Source of the DNA: a virus
IMG/VR virus record: IMGVR_UViG_3300025115_000244
Coordinates: 1 to 21,194 of that record
Reading direction: 5' to 3' (one strand)
Length of the DNA: 21,194 nucleotides
Below the pieces are notes generated by a model. It saw only the letters and a program-made list of their open reading frames with translations. It had not been told where the DNA came from and made no database searches. Within the stretch, counting starts at the first letter, position 1; every line of letters starts with the position of its first letter. A program made the position numbers and the translations under genes. Below are positions 341 through 20,799 of this stretch, in pieces.

Positions 341-445
341 TATCCTAAGATTTCACATAGAATCTATCTGCAAATGACTTCTCTAACAAAAGCAATTGCA
401 AATATGTTCTATAAGTTTCAGATACACCAGGATGTTAGGATACAA

Positions 446-482
446 TCCTATTATCCTATTATCCTATTATCCTATTATCCTA
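446..482 (+). repeat. 8-bp tandem array (iteron-like)
   Basis: Four exact head-to-tail copies of TCCTATTA (446-477) are followed by a partial copy TCCTA (478-482). The reverse-strand motif TTAGGATA lies just upstream at about 435-441, so the left end also forms a small dyad. The same words recur inverted at 745-776. The 8-bp period is not a helical repeat, so if a protein binds here adjacent units would not face the same side of the helix. Confidence 0.85.
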
Positions 483-514
483 AAGTGTTTTTGGGGTATC
501 TTATGGGGGGTGAC

Positions 515-523
515 TTATCCACA
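515..523 (+). promoter_or_regulatory. DnaA box (consensus 9-mer)
   Basis: TTATCCACA matches the high-affinity E. coli R1/R4 DnaA box exactly. It pairs with an inverted box 15 bp downstream. Confidence 0.75.
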
Positions 524-538
524 GGCTAACTGTTAGAT

Positions 539-547
539 TGTGGATAA
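539..547 (-). promoter_or_regulatory. DnaA box (consensus 9-mer, opposite orientation)
   Basis: TGTGGATAA is the exact reverse complement of the consensus box TTATCCACA. Centre-to-centre distance from the box at 515-523 is 24 bp. The AT-rich core begins immediately to its right. Confidence 0.75.
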
Positions 548-559
548 CTATTACCTATT

Positions 560-668
560 ACTACCATATAATATATATCATCTATTATTTATAGTGGGGT
601 ATATATTATTATTAATTTTTAAAAGGGGGTATTATTGTGCTAAGTAATATAGGGGTATATATGGTAGT
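560..668. repeat. 11-bp inverted repeat around the AT-rich core
   Basis: ACTACCATATA (560-570) is repeated as its reverse complement TATATGGTAGT (658-668). It is nested inside the 17-bp inverted repeat at 442-458/745-761 and encloses most of the AT-rich core. Confidence 0.6.
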
Positions 669-710
669 TATAGATAATGTAATAAATGCTAGTAGTATTG
701 GGAGAGGGCA

Positions 711-740
711 TTGACATGCCCATAAGGTATGGGGTAAAAT
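711..740 (+). promoter_or_regulatory. Early sigma70-type promoter
   Basis: TTGACA (711-716) and TAAAAT (735-740) are separated by 18 bp, a strong -35 and a good -10. Transcription would start near 747, inside the right arm of the inverted repeat (745-761), and would run into the genes from 825. This placement suggests repression by whatever binds that repeat (inference). Confidence 0.7.
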
Positions 741-789
741 CGGTTAGGATAATAGGATTGTAGGACATTATCCTAATTTGTTGTTTTTC

Positions 790-2776: not shown

Positions 2777-4567
2777 ATGACAAAACTATCTGAACTATTA
2801 GCTGCAGCAAAAGCTGCAAGACTTATAAAAGAGAAAGGAAATCAAAATGAGCAGTCAGGACGGAATGTTGATATTGGATATAATCAATCTAATATCGGGA
2901 GTAGTGATGGCAATAACGGAACTAGCACCAGCACCAATTCAACCACCAATTCAACCACCAATTCAACAACAATCCATACCGGAATCGGAAAACATGGAGA
3001 ATCAATTGAATACAATTCCGAACAGTGGCAATTCATTCAAACAGTTCTCAGTGGAAAATCCTGCATCCTCATTGGAGCCGCAGGAACAGGTAAAACCACA
3101 AGTACAAGAGGAGCAATCTCAGAACTATTGAGAACTAAATACATTCCAAAGATAGAAGATCATCATAAATACCTTTCCTCAAATGCACCATCAATTGTGG
3201 CAGTATCATATACTCGCCGCGCAGTAATGAATCTTAAACAAGCATTGCCTCCAGAACTTAAAGACAATGCAATTACAATCCATAAGTTATTGGAATATCA
3301 ACCTAATTTCTACGAAGTATTTGATGAGGAATCAGGTGAGTATAAAAAGACAATGCGATTTGAACCAAATAGAAATCAATACAATAAATTACCAGCATCA
3401 ATTCGTACAATTATCATTGATGAATCATCAATGGTATCTGTTGATCTATTCCATCAAATCTGGACAGCATTAGAATCACCATCGAATGTACAATTTATCT
3501 TTCTTGGTGATATTCAACAATTGCCTCCTGTATTTGGCAGTGCAATTCTTGGATTCAAAATGCTCAAGCTTGAAACAATTGAACTAATCCAAGTATATCG
3601 TCAAGCATTGGAATCTCCAATCATTAGGCTTGCACATCGCATCCTAAGTGGTAATCCTATACTGGAAAAAGAATTACCTACTTGGGAAGTTCCAAAACAA
3701 TTAAAACTTCATCCATGGAAGAAGAAAATCCATCCTGATTCTGCATTACTAACTATTGCAGCATTCTTTAAACAAGCATTTGATGCTGGACATTATGTAC
3801 CAGATTCAGATATGATTCTAATTCCATTCAATAAAGCATGTGGTACTGATGAATTAAATAAACATATTGCATCTCACATAGCCAAGAAATATGGATCAAT
3901 GGTATATGAAGTAATTGCAGGTTACAATAAGCATTACTTCAGAGTAGGTGAAAAGATTCTCTATGAAAAAGAGGATGCTACAATCATTGACATAAAAAGA
4001 AATCCTGTATATTCTGGCAAATGGCCGCAATCTCCAAGTATTAAAATGAACTATTGGGGAGATTTACAAGAAGATGAAGAGGATAATTTTGAACTAGGAT
4101 CATCCTCGTCAGTTAGTGATGGAGAAACAGAAGAAGATGTTGATGCAATGCTAGAAGCACTGGCAAATTCAGATGTAGAAGATCGAGTAAGAGAAGCATC
4201 TCATATTCTCACAATACGACTTAATGATTCAGAACGTGAAATAGAAGTAAAATCAGCAGCAGAGATTAATGCTCTAGTTCTATCCTATAGTCTAACTGTA
4301 CATAAATCACAAGGATCAGAATGGAAAAAAGTATATCTAATTATTCATAACTCACATAACACAATGATTCAAAGAGAGCTATTATATACTGCTTGCACTA
4401 GAGCAAGAGAGGAATTGTATGTAATCTGCGAGCCTGATTCATTTGAGAAAGGAATTAAATCACAAAGAATTAAAGGTAATACATTAGCAGAAAAGAAAGA
4501 ATTCTTCTGCGGTAAATTACAAGCAGGTGAAGATCAATATCTTACAGAAATGGGGATTACAAAATGA
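2777..4567 (+). CDS. SF1B DNA helicase, RecD2/Dda-like
   Basis: A 596-residue ATP-dependent helicase of the RecD/Dda/Pif1 group, expected to unwind DNA 5' to 3' during replication or recombination. Visible motifs: Walker A GAAGTGKT (100-107), Walker B DESS (215-218), motif III GDIQQLPPV (244-252), motif IV YRQ (274-276), motif V VHKSQGSE (508-515) and motif VI YTACTRAREELYV (537-549). Residues about 25-70 are a Ser/Thr/Asn/Gly-rich linker that includes three 12-bp DNA repeats. Residues about 429-470 are a strongly acidic insert within the region that usually holds the SH3-like domain. ATG 2777 is preferred over an in-frame GTG at 2765 that overlaps the previous gene. It overlaps the next gene by ATGA. 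Confidence 0.92.
   Translation: MTKLSELLAAAKAARLIKEKGNQNEQSGRNVDIGYNQSNIGSSDGNNGTSTSTNSTTNSTTNSTTIHTGIGKHGESIEYNSEQWQFIQTVLSGKSCILIGAAGTGKTTSTRGAISELLRTKYIPKIEDHHKYLSSNAPSIVAVSYTRRAVMNLKQALPPELKDNAITIHKLLEYQPNFYEVFDEESGEYKKTMRFEPNRNQYNKLPASIRTIIIDESSMVSVDLFHQIWTALESPSNVQFIFLGDIQQLPPVFGSAILGFKMLKLETIELIQVYRQALESPIIRLAHRILSGNPILEKELPTWEVPKQLKLHPWKKKIHPDSALLTIAAFFKQAFDAGHYVPDSDMILIPFNKACGTDELNKHIASHIAKKYGSMVYEVIAGYNKHYFRVGEKILYEKEDATIIDIKRNPVYSGKWPQSPSIKMNYWGDLQEDEEDNFELGSSSSVSDGETEEDVDAMLEALANSDVEDRVREASHILTIRLNDSEREIEVKSAAEINALVLSYSLTVHKSQGSEWKKVYLIIHNSHNTMIQRELLYTACTRAREELYVICEPDSFEKGIKSQRIKGNTLAEKKEFFCGKLQAGEDQYLTEMGITK
2847..3131 (+). CDS. Candidate overprinted small membrane protein inside helicase gene
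   Basis: A 94-codon frame lies entirely within the helicase gene. Its ATG at 2847 has a strong Shine-Dalgarno (AAAGGA, 2834-2839, spacing 7), better than that of the helicase itself. The predicted product has a hydrophobic segment at about residues 7-23 (MLILDIINLISGVVMAI), followed by a Pro/Gln/Ile repeat (PIQPPIQPPIQQQ) and a Gln/Glu-rich tail. It resembles small single-pass or Rz1-like envelope proteins only in general composition. It overlies the unconstrained linker of the helicase but also the Walker A region. Frames of this size arise by chance in AT-rich genes, so this is a low-confidence candidate. Confidence 0.25.
   Translation: MSSQDGMLILDIINLISGVVMAITELAPAPIQPPIQPPIQQQSIPESENMENQLNTIPNSGNSFKQFSVENPASSLEPQEQVKPQVQEEQSQNY
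2932..2967 (+). repeat. 12-bp tandem repeat, three copies, in helicase linker
   Basis: CACCAATTCAAC occurs exactly three times head to tail (2932-2943, 2944-2955 and 2956-2967). It keeps frame and encodes repeated Asn-Ser-Thr-Thr in the helicase N-terminal linker. In the +1 frame it encodes Pro/Gln/Ile-rich repeats. Confidence 0.85.
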
Positions 4568-9503: not shown

Positions 9504-9566
9504 TTACACTGAATCAAGAGCCTTCAGTCTCTCACAAGGATTCTGAAGGTTTTTCTTTGAGTGTAA
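9504..9566 (+). terminator. Rho-independent terminator with extended stem
   Basis: The core stem CCTTCAG (9521-9527)/CTGAAGG (9543-9549) is followed by TTTTT (9550-9554). Outer pairings TCAAGA/TCTTTGA and TTACACT (9504-9510)/AGTGTAA (9560-9566) extend it into a long interrupted hairpin. It starts 4 bases after the SSB-like gene and would limit transcription into the next operon. Confidence 0.82.
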
Positions 9567-9592
9567 GTAATAGAAAAAGGAGAATATATAAA

Positions 9593-9964
9593 ATGAAATA
9601 CAGACCATACATGACATTGCAACAAATACATTATTTCCTTTCCCTCTGTGAGAATGACAACCGCGCAGAGACAGAGCCAATTAAAAATAAAACAATACGG
9701 GAATTAAAACTATTCCTAGTGAAGAATGATCTTGGTGCTGTTAAACCACAATACATTCCAACACCTAAGACCACAGTAGCAGAGAAACTAGGATTAGATT
9801 TAGATTCTCCAGATTTGGAAACAAGACGGGCCGCCGCACATGAACTATGGATGACAAATCCACATCTTTGCACACCAGAAGAAATTAAACAAGCAGAGAT
9901 TTATCGTTATGAAAATGATCTAATGTCACCAGATGAAGAAGCTACATTTGAGGAGAAGATGTAA
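9593..9964 (+). CDS. Unknown phage protein (123 aa)
   Basis: A 123-residue protein with a strong Shine-Dalgarno AAAAAGGAG (about 9574-9582) before ATG 9593. An in-frame TTG at 9557 lies within the terminator and is rejected. Residues 1-45 (MTLQQIHYFLSLCEND...ELKLFLVKNDLG) are helical. Residues about 60-90 (TTVAEKLGLDLDSPDLETRRAAAHELW) look like a charged helical region. The acidic C-terminus (SPDEEATFEEKM) overlaps the ribosome binding site (GAGGAG) of the next gene, and the two overlap by TAATG at 9962-9966. No family recognised. Confidence 0.68.
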   Translation: MKYRPYMTLQQIHYFLSLCENDNRAETEPIKNKTIRELKLFLVKNDLGAVKPQYIPTPKTTVAEKLGLDLDSPDLETRRAAAHELWMTNPHLCTPEEIKQAEIYRYENDLMSPDEEATFEEKM

Positions 9965-12635: not shown

Positions 12636-13871
12636 ATGAGAGAAGATTTCATTTCATCCTATTTAGCATACATAGGTGAATCTGAATCTCCCACAACATT
12701 TCATCGGTGGTCTTGCCTTGCAATTCTTGGCGCTTGGCTTGGCCGCCGATACTCGTTTCAGCATGGACATTTCACAGTTGCTTCTAACTTATATGTTATG
12801 CTGATGGGAGGCGCAGGTTCGCGCAAATCTACTGCAATTAAAATAGCAGCTAATCTAATAAGAAAAGCTGGATATGATTCAATAGCAGCAGAGAGAAGTA
12901 CCAAAGAGAAATTCTTAATGGATTTAGCAGGAGAAGGTTCCATTGAGGATACTAAAGATTTAATGGAACAAAATCTATTTGGTGATGCAGATCATATCTC
13001 AGAACTGCTAGTTGCAGCAGATGAATTCAATGTTTTTATTGGTAATGGTAATATAGAATTTCTTTCACTACTTGGCACACTATGGGATTACTCAGGTAAG
13101 TTTGAGGATAGAAAGAAAAATTCTAAATCATTATCAATAGTTGATCCAACAGTTTCAATTCTAGCAGGTAACACAGCAACAGGTTTCTCACTTGCATTTC
13201 CAGCAGAAGCAATTGGTCAAGGCATTTTTAGCAGACTGATTCTTATTCATGGCGAAAAAACTGATAAACGAATTACATTTCCAGAGCCTCCTTCACAAGA
13301 CACAGAAAGATTACTAATAGATATACTACATGCTATTCGTCAAGTTGCCTCTGGTAATGCAGTACTATCAGCAGATTCAAAGAAAATGCTAGATGCAATT
13401 TACAAATCATGGCGCGGCATAGAGGATGTTAGATTTGAATCATATGGTAATCGCCGCTTCTCTCAATTATTAAAACTGTGTCTATTGTGTAGTGCTGCTG
13501 CATTGAGAAATACAATCGAAGAAACTGATGTAATATATGCAAATACAATTCTTACACATGCAGAACATCTAATGCCAAAAGCTCTAGGTGAATTTGGTAA
13601 AGCAAGAAACAGTGATGTGGCTCATAAGGTAATATCACTTCTTGAAGCTGCATATGAACCTGTGACATTAAAAGTAATATGGAAGAATGTTCATAATGAC
13701 TTAGAAGATATAGGTGTGCTAAAAGATCTACTGGCAAATCTAACAATTGCAGATAAAGTAATCTCAACCAAAGGAGGATTTTTGGCTAAAAGGAAAGTAC
13801 TAGAAGAATTGAATACAGAATTTGTAGATTTTACTTTACTAACTCCTGAAGAAAGGGTATTTATATCATGA
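12636..13871 (+). CDS. DUF3987-like phage replicative helicase/ATPase
   Basis: A 411-residue RecA-fold ATPase resembling DUF3987-type phage helicases. The N-terminus FISSYLAYIGESESPTTFHR and then LGRRYSFQHG is typical of the group. Walker A GGAGSRKST is at 58-66, Walker B LLVAADEF at 124-131, and SILAGNTATGFS near 178 could be the sensor region. The C-terminal about 90 residues look like a winged-helix module (VISLLEAAYEPVTLKVIWKN). It probably acts as the replication-fork helicase with the polymerase just upstream. No primase domain is fused. The start at 12636 is the only ATG that keeps the family N-terminus, although the ribosome binding site is weak. It overlaps the next gene by ATGA. Confidence 0.82.
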   Translation: MREDFISSYLAYIGESESPTTFHRWSCLAILGAWLGRRYSFQHGHFTVASNLYVMLMGGAGSRKSTAIKIAANLIRKAGYDSIAAERSTKEKFLMDLAGEGSIEDTKDLMEQNLFGDADHISELLVAADEFNVFIGNGNIEFLSLLGTLWDYSGKFEDRKKNSKSLSIVDPTVSILAGNTATGFSLAFPAEAIGQGIFSRLILIHGEKTDKRITFPEPPSQDTERLLIDILHAIRQVASGNAVLSADSKKMLDAIYKSWRGIEDVRFESYGNRRFSQLLKLCLLCSAAALRNTIEETDVIYANTILTHAEHLMPKALGEFGKARNSDVAHKVISLLEAAYEPVTLKVIWKNVHNDLEDIGVLKDLLANLTIADKVISTKGGFLAKRKVLEELNTEFVDFTLLTPEERVFIS

Positions 13872-15492: not shown

Positions 15493-18400
15493 TCACTCGC
15501 CTCCATTCATGAGAGTTTGTAGCATTTGAACATGCGGCGAATTACCTTTTTGCCTGAGTTGTTCCGCTTGCGACACGGTAGCATTCTTGTATAATCCAGC
15601 ATACCACTGTGCGAATTTATCTTGCTTACCGCCTGTGCGCGCATATGCTTCTGCAAATTCAGCAATCTGCGCTTCATCTGGTTCTTTACCACCTACAATA
15701 GATTGCTTAATTCCCTCAGATAATACTTTTCTTTTAGCTGCATCAGCTGTATTGTAAGTATTAATTCTATGCACTGCATCATTTACCATTGCTTCATCAA
15801 GTGGTTTAGCGCCAGCAATTCTCATAAGAGATGACAGCGACCACATATCATGTGCAATTAACATGTTGCCTTGCTGATTCATAGAAATGAGTTTCTTATC
15901 ATCTCTACCAGCAGCTTCAAGTACTTGTGCCATACCAGACAGCGGGCGTGAAATACCATTCTGCTCCACACCGCGCAAGAATGTACTCCACACATCAGCA
16001 CCCATAGATACCTTAGTATAAGCTTCCTTCATGTTACTGAAGAATCTGCTAGTCGCTTGATATATTGGAGTCTTAGTAGGATCAACAGGAAGCAGTGTAA
16101 CATGCCGCGGATTAATATCTCCACGAGAATACATATTAATCTTCAGGTCAGGGTGTGCAAGACCTAGGCCATTAGATAAGCCACCATACAGTAACCACTC
16201 TCCAGCCTCTTTACCACCAAGACTAAAGATAGAATCATACAGTGTCTTATGTTCCAGATTGCCACCAGCTTGCCCAATAAGATATGTATTAATGGCATTA
16301 AATGCTGGCAATCCATTCAGGCCGTACACAGATGCTTGCAACCCCATCATGGTTAATACATTACGGGAATTGCCATCCCCAATATGACGGAATACTTGTT
16401 GTAATAGGTTGAATTGATAGGTTTGGAATAATCCAATAGCCTGTCCAATCGGGCCTTGAAATACCACAGGACGCTGCGATGCAAGATAGTTACCTTGAGT
16501 TCTATTTACAAATGTATTAATATAACTCAGCGCAGATTTTTCATCCATCAATCCATGCTTCACTGCCACATCTGTAATATCTTTCATTACACCAGCAGCA
16601 ACATAGCGGTTAAATTCTTCTGCTAGTTTATTACCTGTCCACTTCTCTGCAGAGTCTCCAAGTCCTTTCATACTATCCATTGCTTTTTGCACAGCAGAAT
16701 TATCTCCGCGCGACAATGCAATAGAAATATGATCCAGTGTTTGATCGTACTGGTCAGTGATTGAGGAAATGAATCCATGCTTTTTATACCATTCACGCCC
16801 CGCCTTATCCCCATGGAACTTAGCGATCTGTTTTGCAATCAGCTTAGCAGGACTGGTAATGTAGTCATCAGTTCCAGGAACTTTTACTTTCATCAATGCT
16901 GCTAGTTCCCCAACTGCATCCTTATTACCAGCTTGAATGGCGCGAATTACAGCTTTAGTTTCCGATCCCAAAAGTACAACAGATCCAACAGTGTTATTGA
17001 GCGAGTTCATCCAGTCAGCTCGCAGTGCAAGAGTTGCAATTAGCGAGTTGACTTTATTAACAACACCGGACAGCACACCGCGCGGCACAGTTGCATTAGA
17101 TGCTTGATACAATGCCTCAGTTACTATTGGCCCTTTGTATCCTGCATTCTCAAGACTCTGTTGAATACTTACCAGGTCATCAGGATTCTTAGCGGCGTAG
17201 AATAGCTTACCTGCCTTATCTGCAAGCGTAGAGAAAGCATTGTCAGCGAATTTATTGATAGCATTCCAAAGAGGATATTCATCCATCTTAGAAATATCAA
17301 GTGCCATCTTCATCAAGTTAACTGCTGGATTATCTACAGCTTTCTCGGCATAAGCCAGTGGACTAATGTATCCAAACTTAGATTTGGCAGCCTGCACAGA
17401 TGGATCTGCAATAGCTCGGAAGCCTGCAAACTCAGGAGCATACTTATGTTCTACAAGAGTACGAACAAGAGCAGCATCGCGAGACTGATGCCAATCAAGA
17501 AAGTCTTTTACAATCTGCTTTGGATCAGTAACAGGAAGCAATGACTCAGAAGTACCTTTACGCGCAAGTGCAGTATTGATATAATTCTCTGACAGTGTTC
17601 TCTCAAACTCATACTGCCCGATAGACTTATAGTATTCTTCACTCTCAGTCTTGGTAAGAACTCGAATACCACGATCTCGTAATGTAGGATCAGTCATAAT
17701 ACTGTTACGCATCTGATCAAGAGTCTCTGCATCTTTTGCATAGATCATCTTAGAATGACCAGTAGAATTAACTGACTCGTCAATTACAAATGCGTAGTGC
17801 GGTGTATTTCTAGGGTCGCGCGGAATAGGATAGAAAACTCCTTCTTGGAATCTATCCTGATATCCATTGTCAGAATGTACTTTTTGCAATGTGGAGCGGC
17901 GACCTGTGTTTCGTGTGATATGAGAAGCAGCAAGCTCTCGCACTTCTGCTGATTTCAATTCTACCCTAAGTGGGAATCCTTTATCAGCGGCCTCAGCAAG
18001 AGATTCTTGATACTTAGTAATTGCTTTCTCAAAAGCTACCTCATTGATATAATCATCAATTACTGGAGCTTTGCCATACACCAAGGCCGCGCCATCATCT
18101 GCAAGGAAATACCTATTAGGCAATCCTCTCATTTTTTCATTGATGACAGACCATTCAATAGCAGCATCTTGATTGTTAGCAAGTTTCAGAAGTGTGGGGT
18201 TAAAGATCTCAGCAGTTTTCTCTTTTGCGGTTTTGATTAATCTATGAGCTACTTGTCCAGTATAAGAGAAGAATGAACTCCAAGTACCGTAGTTACCTCC
18301 CTCCGCTGTAAGTAAAGTGGCCCCCGTAGTGGTACCGATAGGAGCACCGCGCATACCAGTAGCATCAAGGAGTATTGTACCAGGTGCTATCTTATTAACT

Positions 18401-20799
18401 TCATTATCAGCAGTCGCAGAAATTCTCTTTCTATACTCTGCCATCTTTTGCTCAATGACAGTCATACCCTCCAGCAAATTACCATCCACATCTTTAGTTC
18501 TGGAAGATGTAGTAATAATCTTCATGTGATTAGGAGACACGCGAGGATCTGGAAGATTATTCTTCTTTGCAAAATCTACAGCGGCCTGACGCGCATTGTA
18601 AAGAGATACATCATCAACCACACCGCGCACAACAGCCTTGTTAGCATTGATAATCATTGCAACTTCTTCAGCAGTTGGCTTAAGAGTTCTCTGCAATGCT
18701 GAATCGATTACATCTTGCGGCAATGGACGAAGTAGATGACCAGCGAATTTTTCAAATTCTGGATACTTAGAAAGTAGATTAGGATTCTTAGAAAGATAAG
18801 AGAAACTATCTGCCATCATCTCATGCCAATTAGTACGGTATGAAATTGAAACAGGATCTTTAGCTCTCCACAGTTGAGGCCGCGCAAGCTGAGAAAGTCG
18901 TGTAACTTCTTTACTCATTGCTGGCCAGGCTGCATCAAGATTAAGCCTAGATACTCCACGCGCATCTAAGAGAGATTGGAAAATAGAATGTCCTTCTTCA
19001 TGTTTCAGTGTGCGAATCATTTCCATCAATGGACGCTTTAGATTAGCAAACTTTTCCATTGTGATTGCATCGCCGCCAACATCCTTGCCGCGCGCAGTCT
19101 TACCAAATACACGCTTGAACATTCCATAATAACCAGCACCGGCATCTTCAACCACATTGATATTAATACCTAGATAATACTTAAGCTTGTCAACAATGGC
19201 ATCGAAATCTTGCACTAGCGCTTCAGCTTTAAGAAGCTTATCACCAACTACACGTTGAGATTGTCTTGTAAATTCAGCAATTTCATCAGCAGTTTTAAGA
19301 ATCACTGCTTCATCAACTGCGCCAGATTCAGGTATAACTTTCAACCGCGTCAGGCCATCACGCTGCGCTTTTTGTAGTAGTGGAATATCACTCCAATGCA
19401 CAGTTGCAGATCCATCATCAGCCCACTTAGGCAATGATTCAGCCCACAGGTAACGAGACTGTGCATTCATATAATCCTGGCCAAGAATATTGTACGGCTT
19501 GTATGGATTATTGGTGTGGTGATAAGTCTTAGTTCCTACTTGTACAGTATCTCCATTTACTACTGGACGCGCCTTATCTCCAAGTGCCATAAGCGGCGGA
19601 CGCTCATTGGAGATTTCTTTACTGTACATATTTACATAACTAACTTTATATTTTAATGCCTCATCTACCTCATCTGCAGTAGCTTGTAATCCAAGCTTAC
19701 CTTTACCACTAACAGCACGCAGCGCCTCATTCATACGCTTCTCAGCTGCACTTGTAGTAGTGATTCTAGCTATTGAAGTAGCTTCAAGGTATTTACCAAC
19801 ATTGTCAGTAAACTGGCCCGCCTTGATATTTTCAAATACCATGCGAGTTAATTCTTCATCGCCACCAGTGAGTGCATTAATATGTCCGCGAATTTCAGTC
19901 TCAAGAGTAGCAACTGATTGCGCCTGTGTCTTACCTGCACGTTGTGCAAATGGCATTTCAGGATGGATCTGTGGCATAGAATCAATCTGTTGCAACTTGT
20001 ACAACATCTTGTCTGATTCAAGTAGATTCTCAGCGGGGTGCGATGTAATCTGCCACGGCATCATTTCTTCGTCAATCTTACCAAGGCCGCGGCGAATAGC
20101 AGAGGAAGCACCGATGCCTGAAATCAATCCACCAACAAGGCCGCCTCCGATTGCTCCCCAAGTTACAACATCAACCATCAGATCTTTTACACTACGCTGC
20201 TCAAGGATGGGAGAGTTATACATTGTTGCATTAACAGCAGCAGTGAAGGCCGCACCTTCTAGTGCATTCTGTGCAATACCAGCACCAAGTGCACGTACCA
20301 CTTCAGCGTCAGTATATTTAAATACTCTACCTTCATTACCTATAGCTTGAACAGCTTTGGTAACTAAAGATTGCTGAGAAGGAATACGAAGCCCCATCGC
20401 AGTAGCAATGTTAGCTCCCATAGTTCCTTCTTTAACAGCATTCCGCACCAATGCTTGTCCAACCCGTACACCTTTGATACCAGCAGTGCCAGGTACTATA
20501 GATGCAGCTATAAATCCAACAGTATCAATACCTAGTTGGTGATCATCGTAGTATTTAGCTAGATCAGAATCATATGAAGCAATTGCATCACGGTTGGATG
20601 TAAGTTTGAATGCATCATCTCCAGATACCCAATTGCCAATGGTAGCAACAGTATTACCCAATTCATTACCTGCCGCAATAAATGAAGCAGGAAGGCCGCG
20701 AGTAATAAGATTAGCAGCAGAATCAAAAATGCTTCCAGATTCTTGAGCAGTCGCAAGAACATCATGAGATTCAGCGGCTAATTGAAAAGCAGTGGCCAT
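15493..20799 (-). CDS. Giant internal virion (ejection-type) protein with embedded zinc-metallopeptidase motif
   Basis: A 1768-residue protein. Hydrophobic glycine-rich segments at about 90-105 and 208-231 (VVTWGAIGGGLVGGLISGIG) resemble membrane-inserting parts of podovirus ejection proteins. Residues 600-604 are HEEGH, a HEXXH zinc-protease motif, followed by HEMMAD with E660 as likely third ligand, a gluzincin-like layout. The middle is long, charged and helical. The C-terminal third has GPIGQAIGLFQTYQFNLLQQ and alternating Gly/hydrophobic segments. I see no lysozyme or transglycosylase motif. Size and composition match T7 gp16-like internal virion proteins or large polyvalent proteins, but homology is not shown. 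ATG (20797-20799) follows AGAGGAAA and overlaps the previous stop by TAATG. Confidence 0.72.
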   Translation of the reverse strand: MATAFQLAAESHDVLATAQESGSIFDSAANLITRGLPASFIAAGNELGNTVATIGNWVSGDDAFKLTSNRDAIASYDSDLAKYYDDHQLGIDTVGFIAASIVPGTAGIKGVRVGQALVRNAVKEGTMGANIATAMGLRIPSQQSLVTKAVQAIGNEGRVFKYTDAEVVRALGAGIAQNALEGAAFTAAVNATMYNSPILEQRSVKDLMVDVVTWGAIGGGLVGGLISGIGASSAIRRGLGKIDEEMMPWQITSHPAENLLESDKMLYKLQQIDSMPQIHPEMPFAQRAGKTQAQSVATLETEIRGHINALTGGDEELTRMVFENIKAGQFTDNVGKYLEATSIARITTTSAAEKRMNEALRAVSGKGKLGLQATADEVDEALKYKVSYVNMYSKEISNERPPLMALGDKARPVVNGDTVQVGTKTYHHTNNPYKPYNILGQDYMNAQSRYLWAESLPKWADDGSATVHWSDIPLLQKAQRDGLTRLKVIPESGAVDEAVILKTADEIAEFTRQSQRVVGDKLLKAEALVQDFDAIVDKLKYYLGININVVEDAGAGYYGMFKRVFGKTARGKDVGGDAITMEKFANLKRPLMEMIRTLKHEEGHSIFQSLLDARGVSRLNLDAAWPAMSKEVTRLSQLARPQLWRAKDPVSISYRTNWHEMMADSFSYLSKNPNLLSKYPEFEKFAGHLLRPLPQDVIDSALQRTLKPTAEEVAMIINANKAVVRGVVDDVSLYNARQAAVDFAKKNNLPDPRVSPNHMKIITTSSRTKDVDGNLLEGMTVIEQKMAEYRKRISATADNEVNKIAPGTILLDATGMRGAPIGTTTGATLLTAEGGNYGTWSSFFSYTGQVAHRLIKTAKEKTAEIFNPTLLKLANNQDAAIEWSVINEKMRGLPNRYFLADDGAALVYGKAPVIDDYINEVAFEKAITKYQESLAEAADKGFPLRVELKSAEVRELAASHITRNTGRRSTLQKVHSDNGYQDRFQEGVFYPIPRDPRNTPHYAFVIDESVNSTGHSKMIYAKDAETLDQMRNSIMTDPTLRDRGIRVLTKTESEEYYKSIGQYEFERTLSENYINTALARKGTSESLLPVTDPKQIVKDFLDWHQSRDAALVRTLVEHKYAPEFAGFRAIADPSVQAAKSKFGYISPLAYAEKAVDNPAVNLMKMALDISKMDEYPLWNAINKFADNAFSTLADKAGKLFYAAKNPDDLVSIQQSLENAGYKGPIVTEALYQASNATVPRGVLSGVVNKVNSLIATLALRADWMNSLNNTVGSVVLLGSETKAVIRAIQAGNKDAVGELAALMKVKVPGTDDYITSPAKLIAKQIAKFHGDKAGREWYKKHGFISSITDQYDQTLDHISIALSRGDNSAVQKAMDSMKGLGDSAEKWTGNKLAEEFNRYVAAGVMKDITDVAVKHGLMDEKSALSYINTFVNRTQGNYLASQRPVVFQGPIGQAIGLFQTYQFNLLQQVFRHIGDGNSRNVLTMMGLQASVYGLNGLPAFNAINTYLIGQAGGNLEHKTLYDSIFSLGGKEAGEWLLYGGLSNGLGLAHPDLKINMYSRGDINPRHVTLLPVDPTKTPIYQATSRFFSNMKEAYTKVSMGADVWSTFLRGVEQNGISRPLSGMAQVLEAAGRDDKKLISMNQQGNMLIAHDMWSLSSLMRIAGAKPLDEAMVNDAVHRINTYNTADAAKRKVLSEGIKQSIVGGKEPDEAQIAEFAEAYARTGGKQDKFAQWYAGLYKNATVSQAEQLRQKGNSPHVQMLQTLMNGGE

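Follow-up and report, generated by a model that had tools for sequence, protein, structure and literature searches.

Plasmid origins of the pSC101, P1 and R6K type combine iterons with DnaA boxes, the origin of phage lambda is a single cluster of iterons of about 18 bp inside the O gene, and the ori1 and crr sites of phage P4 lie kilobases apart. In the origins of phage-inducible chromosomal islands (PICIs), two iteron sets always flank an AT-rich region, an arrangement that in 2018 was said to be unique among known bacterial replicons (PMC6092414). In the Rep helicases of Staphylococcus aureus pathogenicity islands (SaPIs), iteron binding is a function of the C-terminal domain, and two hexamers apparently take part (PMC7581432). 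For podoviruses of the PaP2/PaMx41/Tiera type, no description of a replication origin was found in the literature searched. Considered here is G000, a linear viral fragment of 21,194 bp from IMG/VR (the window, i.e., the whole stretch of DNA analyzed), in which positions 435-776 are read, with moderate confidence, as the putative replication origin of a podovirus related to PaP2 and Tiera and as the region controlling its early promoter. For this group of podoviruses, whose members include Pseudomonas aeruginosa phages that can be carried as episomes, the region offers an origin candidate that is precisely placed and open to testing.

The repeats are located in a 530-bp non-coding gap (295-824) between a gene encoding a protein of ~208 aa and the early replication operon. 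For comparison, related loci were collected from viral contigs using a helicase query and a profile of a 331-aa early protein, giving overlapping sets of 6, 1 and 24 loci. The closest of those cited below is L004 (~90% relative). The features of the gap are as follows:

435-483, + strand: left array, comprising an inverted TTAGGATA (435-442), CAATCCTA (443-450) and four copies of TTATCCTA (451-482)
515-523, + strand: DnaA box TTATCCACA, exact, conserved only in L004
539-547, - strand: DnaA box TTATCCACA, exact, inverted, 15 bp from the first, conserved only in L004
548-660, no strand: AT-rich core, candidate unwinding region
612-629, + strand: central conserved motif TTAATTTTTAAAAGGGGG
711-740, + strand: early promoter TTGACA-18-TAAAAT, 11 of 12 consensus bases
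744-776, - strand: right array, an inverted copy of the left, comprising TTATCCTA (745-752), CAATCCTA (753-760), ATGTCCTA (761-768) and an outer TTAGGATA (769-776)

A preliminary description of this DNA had reported 17-bp inverted arms (442-458/745-761), the left one overlapped by an 8-bp tandem array. The arms proved to be perfect over 18 bp (441-458/745-762), within a 32-bp pair of 84% identity (435-466/745-776). The top inverted score in 295-824 was 19.5, as compared to a maximum of 13 across 60 dinucleotide shuffles, and elsewhere in the window every 560-bp slice stayed below a score of 15. The 8-bp array was likewise found (4.8 copies, 445-482), but it does not merely overlap an arm. Instead, both outer arms are themselves arrays, in which one inverted unit TTAGGATA is followed by NNRTCCTA units, five on the left and three on the right, at an exact spacing of 8 bp. 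The left flank of the left array (350-434) is 88% identical in L004 and possibly represents a further functional site; a TATAAGTTTC-like element found there has an equivalent in several relatives (L033, L034 and L040).

The two consensus DnaA boxes of the preliminary description are exact matches on opposite strands, two being observed where ~0.27 are expected per shuffled window. In L004, both boxes are 100% identical and their spacing is kept, with the gap overall being 79% identical. The DnaA-box segment is absent from L006 and L023 (61% identity in the 331-aa protein), the next relatives with a gap, and no consensus DnaA box was detected in the gap of any examined relative beyond the window and L004. 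The pair is, therefore, specific to that lineage and, given this restriction, host DnaA would be at most a recent add-on. As such, the suggestion that host DnaA takes part in replication finds support in the retention of the pair in one close relative, but not in any other relative examined. That host DnaA is the main initiator, with the phage arrays being accessory, is very unlikely; two perfect inverted boxes that remain identical within a 79% identical region speak for such a role, yet no relative outside the window/L004 pair presents a consensus box in the region. Among viral contigs at large, such pairs are not unique: inverted DnaA boxes 11-19 bp apart were seen in at least 120 contig stretches (L076-L195), and some phages may commonly carry boxes of the host type.

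The AT-rich core noted earlier was confirmed, with AT content reaching 35 of 40 bp. The 11-bp inner arms described around it (560-570/658-668) are present, as part of a 21-bp inverted pair of 90% identity (550-570/658-678). This pair is, however, lost in L004, where the stretch containing its right copy (647-705) is only 68% identical, and is, therefore, probably incidental. Nor are three pairs nested one within the other, as had been described, since, within the outer arms, the DnaA pair and the 11-bp pair are neighbors, neither enclosing the other.

Distribution of the layout among related phages

The same anatomy was recognized in 20 loci, including the window and representing 16 distinct lineages. 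It is clear in ~18 and weak in L024 and L043, where inverted arms are present with no clear short-unit array. In each layout, two opposed arrays with a period of 6-9 bp surround a core of 195-476 bp containing a central motif. Where the gap is intact, the order is the upstream gene (for a protein of ~215 aa), the left array, the core, the promoter with the right array, and the early operon. The conservation of this layout across the phage group strengthens the proposal of an origin built of phage iterons and an AT-rich core, which remains the best reading of the region, with the DnaA component now weaker. The unit word varies between lineages, while the left and right arrays of a given phage agree. 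The units are:

TTATCCTA: window, L004
NNRNCCYR (degenerate): L006, L023
TATCCTAA: L032
TTATCCTG: L029, L031
TGTAGAC: L007
ATTAGACT: L008
CAGACTGTA: L027
TTTGACTT: L033
ATTGACTA: L034, L040
CRRTTAA: L009, L037
ACCAATTA: L025
TAATCA: L041
GCCAAAAT: L042

Except in L006, matches between left and right arrays of the same phage scored 11-29, as compared to a median of 5.5 between phages, the arms of the relatives being the best inverted pair in a preselected gap, with genome-wide scans for inverted pairs serving as control. In those scans, the array pair ranked first or close to first among the inverted pairs of the window, G006, G012 and G015, with G012 and G006 each containing one additional pair of similar or lower score. 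Double units were confined to the array site in all five genomes considered (the window, G012, G015, G022 and G025); G006 was left out of this test, as the pattern was too strict for even its own array. The arms of L006 match each other poorly (7.5), and this locus was identified via its unit motif and spacing. In L006 and L023, several unit positions drift while the R-N-CC-Y-R core and the 8-bp spacing are fixed, as would fit a protein reading the sequence at every unit and speaks against slippage or arm pairing.

Arm pairing deserves consideration, given that complementarity is kept despite the change in sequence between lineages. Were the arms to act by base pairing, be it as an RNA leader hairpin, a long-range stem or an RNA primer on the left arm, only complementarity would matter. 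The right arms of the window, L004 and L006 do fold as hairpins (z of about -2 to -3), but those of L023, L027, L033 and L041 fold no better than shuffles, the arms differ in unit copy number, and L006 retains unit motif and spacing despite its poor complementarity. Base pairing is accordingly deemed improbable. An invertible segment was also considered and rejected, since the promoter and core motif always point the same way with respect to their neighboring genes.

The cores share further properties. The pattern TTTTTAAA(GT)GGGG, corresponding to the central motif of the window, was found in its strict form in 10 of 16 non-redundant phages, as compared to 0.29 in shuffles (maximum 3), a figure that is optimistic, the pattern having been written after the cores were inspected; on the opposite strand, the strict pattern occurred in one of the 16. 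In most of the 20 loci, AT content is maximal near the middle of the core and, in all 20, GC skew is higher in the right half of the core than in the left.

Among cultured phages, FBPa48 contains CYTTG at gap positions 458, 468, 478, 488 and 499 (right, 10-bp spacing), with inverted units at 143, 153, 166 and 208, while Tiera presents facing arms with a score of 15.5. Arms of a comparable kind were not found in the gaps of Aeromonas phage P5. Separately, the 45.9-kb record G020 appears to have been cut within the array region, with AGACTG-type half-arrays at both ends, such that this genome is probably circular or permuted.

The early promoter and competing roles for the arrays

The right array of the window overlaps the predicted transcription start of the early promoter. 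A TTGAC-N17/18-NANNNT promoter was found at the right array in 16 of the 20 loci by script, and in L043 by eye; it is absent in L009, L037 and L032. Because the right array covers the promoter start, a protein bound there probably also controls the early operon.

This same arrangement raises the main rival to an origin, in which the arrays serve as paired operators. Bound at both arrays, a repressor or early regulator of the phage would loop the ~300 bp separating them and silence the early promoter, as might happen in episomal pseudolysogeny, and no origin would be located here. In most relatives, the right array indeed overlaps the -10/+1 region of the promoter, and operator words that differ among related phages are familiar from repressors. 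Moreover, phage Shea, a Jamesmcgillvirus 98.6% identical to PaP2, forms turbid plaques and is maintained as an episome without integrating (PMC13348215). Yet an HTH_3 repressor was not found in seven records (the window and six relatives), where the only two matches are minus-strand genes beside that encoding the ~215-aa protein, both probably encoding a small terminase. In addition, no further arrays exist elsewhere in the five genomes tested, the left array is without a good promoter pointing away from it, and the conserved AT-rich core and central motif are not required by operator looping. Paired operators are, as such, considered unlikely, while retaining appreciable weight.

The episome formed by Shea also bears on the description of the region as plasmid-like, to which it lends indirect support (PMC13348215). 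Although Shea is a distant relative, its behavior renders a plasmid-like origin plausible for the wider group. Two clusters of short direct repeats around a promoter, together with a possible episomal life style in relatives (PMC13348215), could also suit a centromere-like partition site, as in plasmid parC. However, no ParA-type (AAA_31) gene was found in the window or six relatives, three of which are apparently complete, making partition most improbable. No tyrosine integrase was found in the same seven records.

Candidate binding proteins and gene neighborhood

The genes of note in the window are:

1-294, + strand: 3' end of the gene encoding the ~208-aa protein, which precedes the region in all relatives; complete in L004 (4161-4787)
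1385-2380, + strand: 331-aa early protein, present in all relatives, with no known fold; candidate initiator
2777-4567, + strand: Dda-like superfamily 1 (SF1) helicase
12636-13871, + strand: DUF3987 P-loop protein with a winged-helix-like C-terminus; candidate initiator helicase

Relatives of the DUF3987 protein weakly match winged-helix and MCM models and, on this basis, the protein is a candidate for a role similar to that of SaPI Rep; the 331-aa protein is likewise a candidate. When array similarity was compared with that of 11 protein families in Mantel tests, a weak signal (p 0.014, uncorrected) came from the 331-aa protein alone, with p 0.10 when the helicase was controlled for and p 0.12 without near-duplicates. 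AlphaFold models of this protein, built from 6 and 22 sequences (predicted local distance difference test, or pLDDT, 73 and 79; predicted template modeling score, or pTM, 0.44 and 0.52), yielded no fold match. Searches of the PDB with profiles of the 331-aa and ~208-aa families returned no matches, while the DUF3987 profile returned nothing significant, nor did the DUF3987 winged helix show any relation to unit type. Pfam and PHROGs scans of most early proteins revealed no Rep-family initiator (Rep_3, RepA_N or RepA).

Several observations weigh against an origin at this site. The right array is located exactly where an operator would be expected. No conserved protein convincingly follows unit type, and hence no cognate initiator was assigned. 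The range of repeat periods, 6-10 bp, is large for one protein family, and the DUF3987 gene lies 12 kb from the arrays, unlike the rep genes of PICIs. Finally, genome-wide cumulative GC skew, put forward earlier as a check, showed no clean switch at the region in complete relatives; only within the non-coding core does skew rise locally from left to right. As global skew mainly tracks gene strand and so is not diagnostic, it was dropped as an origin marker.

For the origin that is nonetheless favored, we infer the following scheme. A phage initiator would bind the 8-bp units of both arrays, forming two assemblies that face each other. The intervening AT-rich core would then open, with forks being established bidirectionally. 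Since the right array and the start site of the early promoter overlap, initiator binding there may also repress transcription of the early operon, a form of autoregulation, or else couple replication to transcription. The lineage of the window would have gained a DnaA-box pair in the interval separating the left array from the core, and host DnaA may help opening.

In favor of an origin, the region stands at the head of the early operon, which includes the 331-aa protein, the Dda-like helicase, a PD-(D/E)XK nuclease, a Sak4-like protein, PolA and the DUF3987 protein. The closest PolA, helicase and DUF3987 proteins are those of Polaromonas phage Tiera, EBPR podovirus 3, Aeromonas phage P5 and the Pseudomonas aeruginosa Jamesmcgillvirus phages PaP2, 119X and PaMx41. 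In seeking prophage or plasmid relatives, none were found in the plasmid collection and only one small contig, from an archaeal metagenome-assembled genome (MAG), in genome_contigs. This 4.7-kb contig of a Thermoprotei MAG (L196) encodes a 27% relative of the 331-aa protein and is probably a mis-binned viral contig. No RNA families or tRNAs were found.

Elsewhere in the window, a perfect 29-bp repeat, TGAATCTATTACAATGTAAAGAAAGCGAG, occurs at 790-818 and 1347-1375, ahead of an open reading frame (825-1100) and the 331-aa gene, respectively, as a duplicated leader. Positions 9557-9964 encode a 135-aa protein, of which weak homologs occur in several relatives, among them the short records G014, G016 and G023 that span the array surroundings. 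By eye, this protein resembles the product of the first gene past the right array in L007 and may have moved ~8 kb in the lineage of the window. A 1768-aa minus-strand protein (15493-20799), without a Pfam match yet conserved in relatives, is perhaps an internal virion protein.

Comparison with described origins

Like iteron plasmid origins (pSC101, P1, R6K), the phage region combines iterons, DnaA boxes, an AT-rich region and a promoter with operator-like iteron copies. It differs in its iterons, which are 8 bp long and divided between two facing arrays, in the lack of a recognized Rep-family initiator, and in DnaA boxes that are not conserved. With the lambda origin it shares short iterons beside an AT-rich region, within an early replication region, but presents two facing arrays in a non-coding gap rather than a single cluster within a gene. 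Phage P4 offers two octamer-like repeat arrays (ori1 and crr), to which an initiator with helicase activity binds; its sites are, however, kilobases apart, and the likeness considered here is one of organization.

PICI and SaPI origins similarly place two iteron sets around an AT-rich region, as do the phage arrays (PMC6092414), and their initiator is an element-encoded helicase that recognizes the iterons by its C-terminal domain (PMC6092414, PMC7581432). In contrast to those elements, the phages are autonomous podoviruses with their own PolA, and one lineage contains DnaA boxes. Moreover, the PICI/SaPI origin is found directly 3' of the rep gene, whereas the phage region is instead located at the early promoter, between the gene for the ~208-aa protein and the early operon.

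It is tentatively proposed, as a possibility rather than an expectation, that the group uses a PICI-type bipartite origin fused to an early promoter, with the iteron words acting as a lock-and-key identity for each lineage and with one lineage having recently recruited host DnaA. If so, such words could, for example, exclude co-infecting relatives or satellites that parasitize the origin. A repeat word that changes under a fixed layout provides a natural experiment on the coevolution of initiator and site. The region also takes the bipartite inverted-iteron layout beyond phage satellites and into autonomous phages, which bears on the ancestry of satellite origins.
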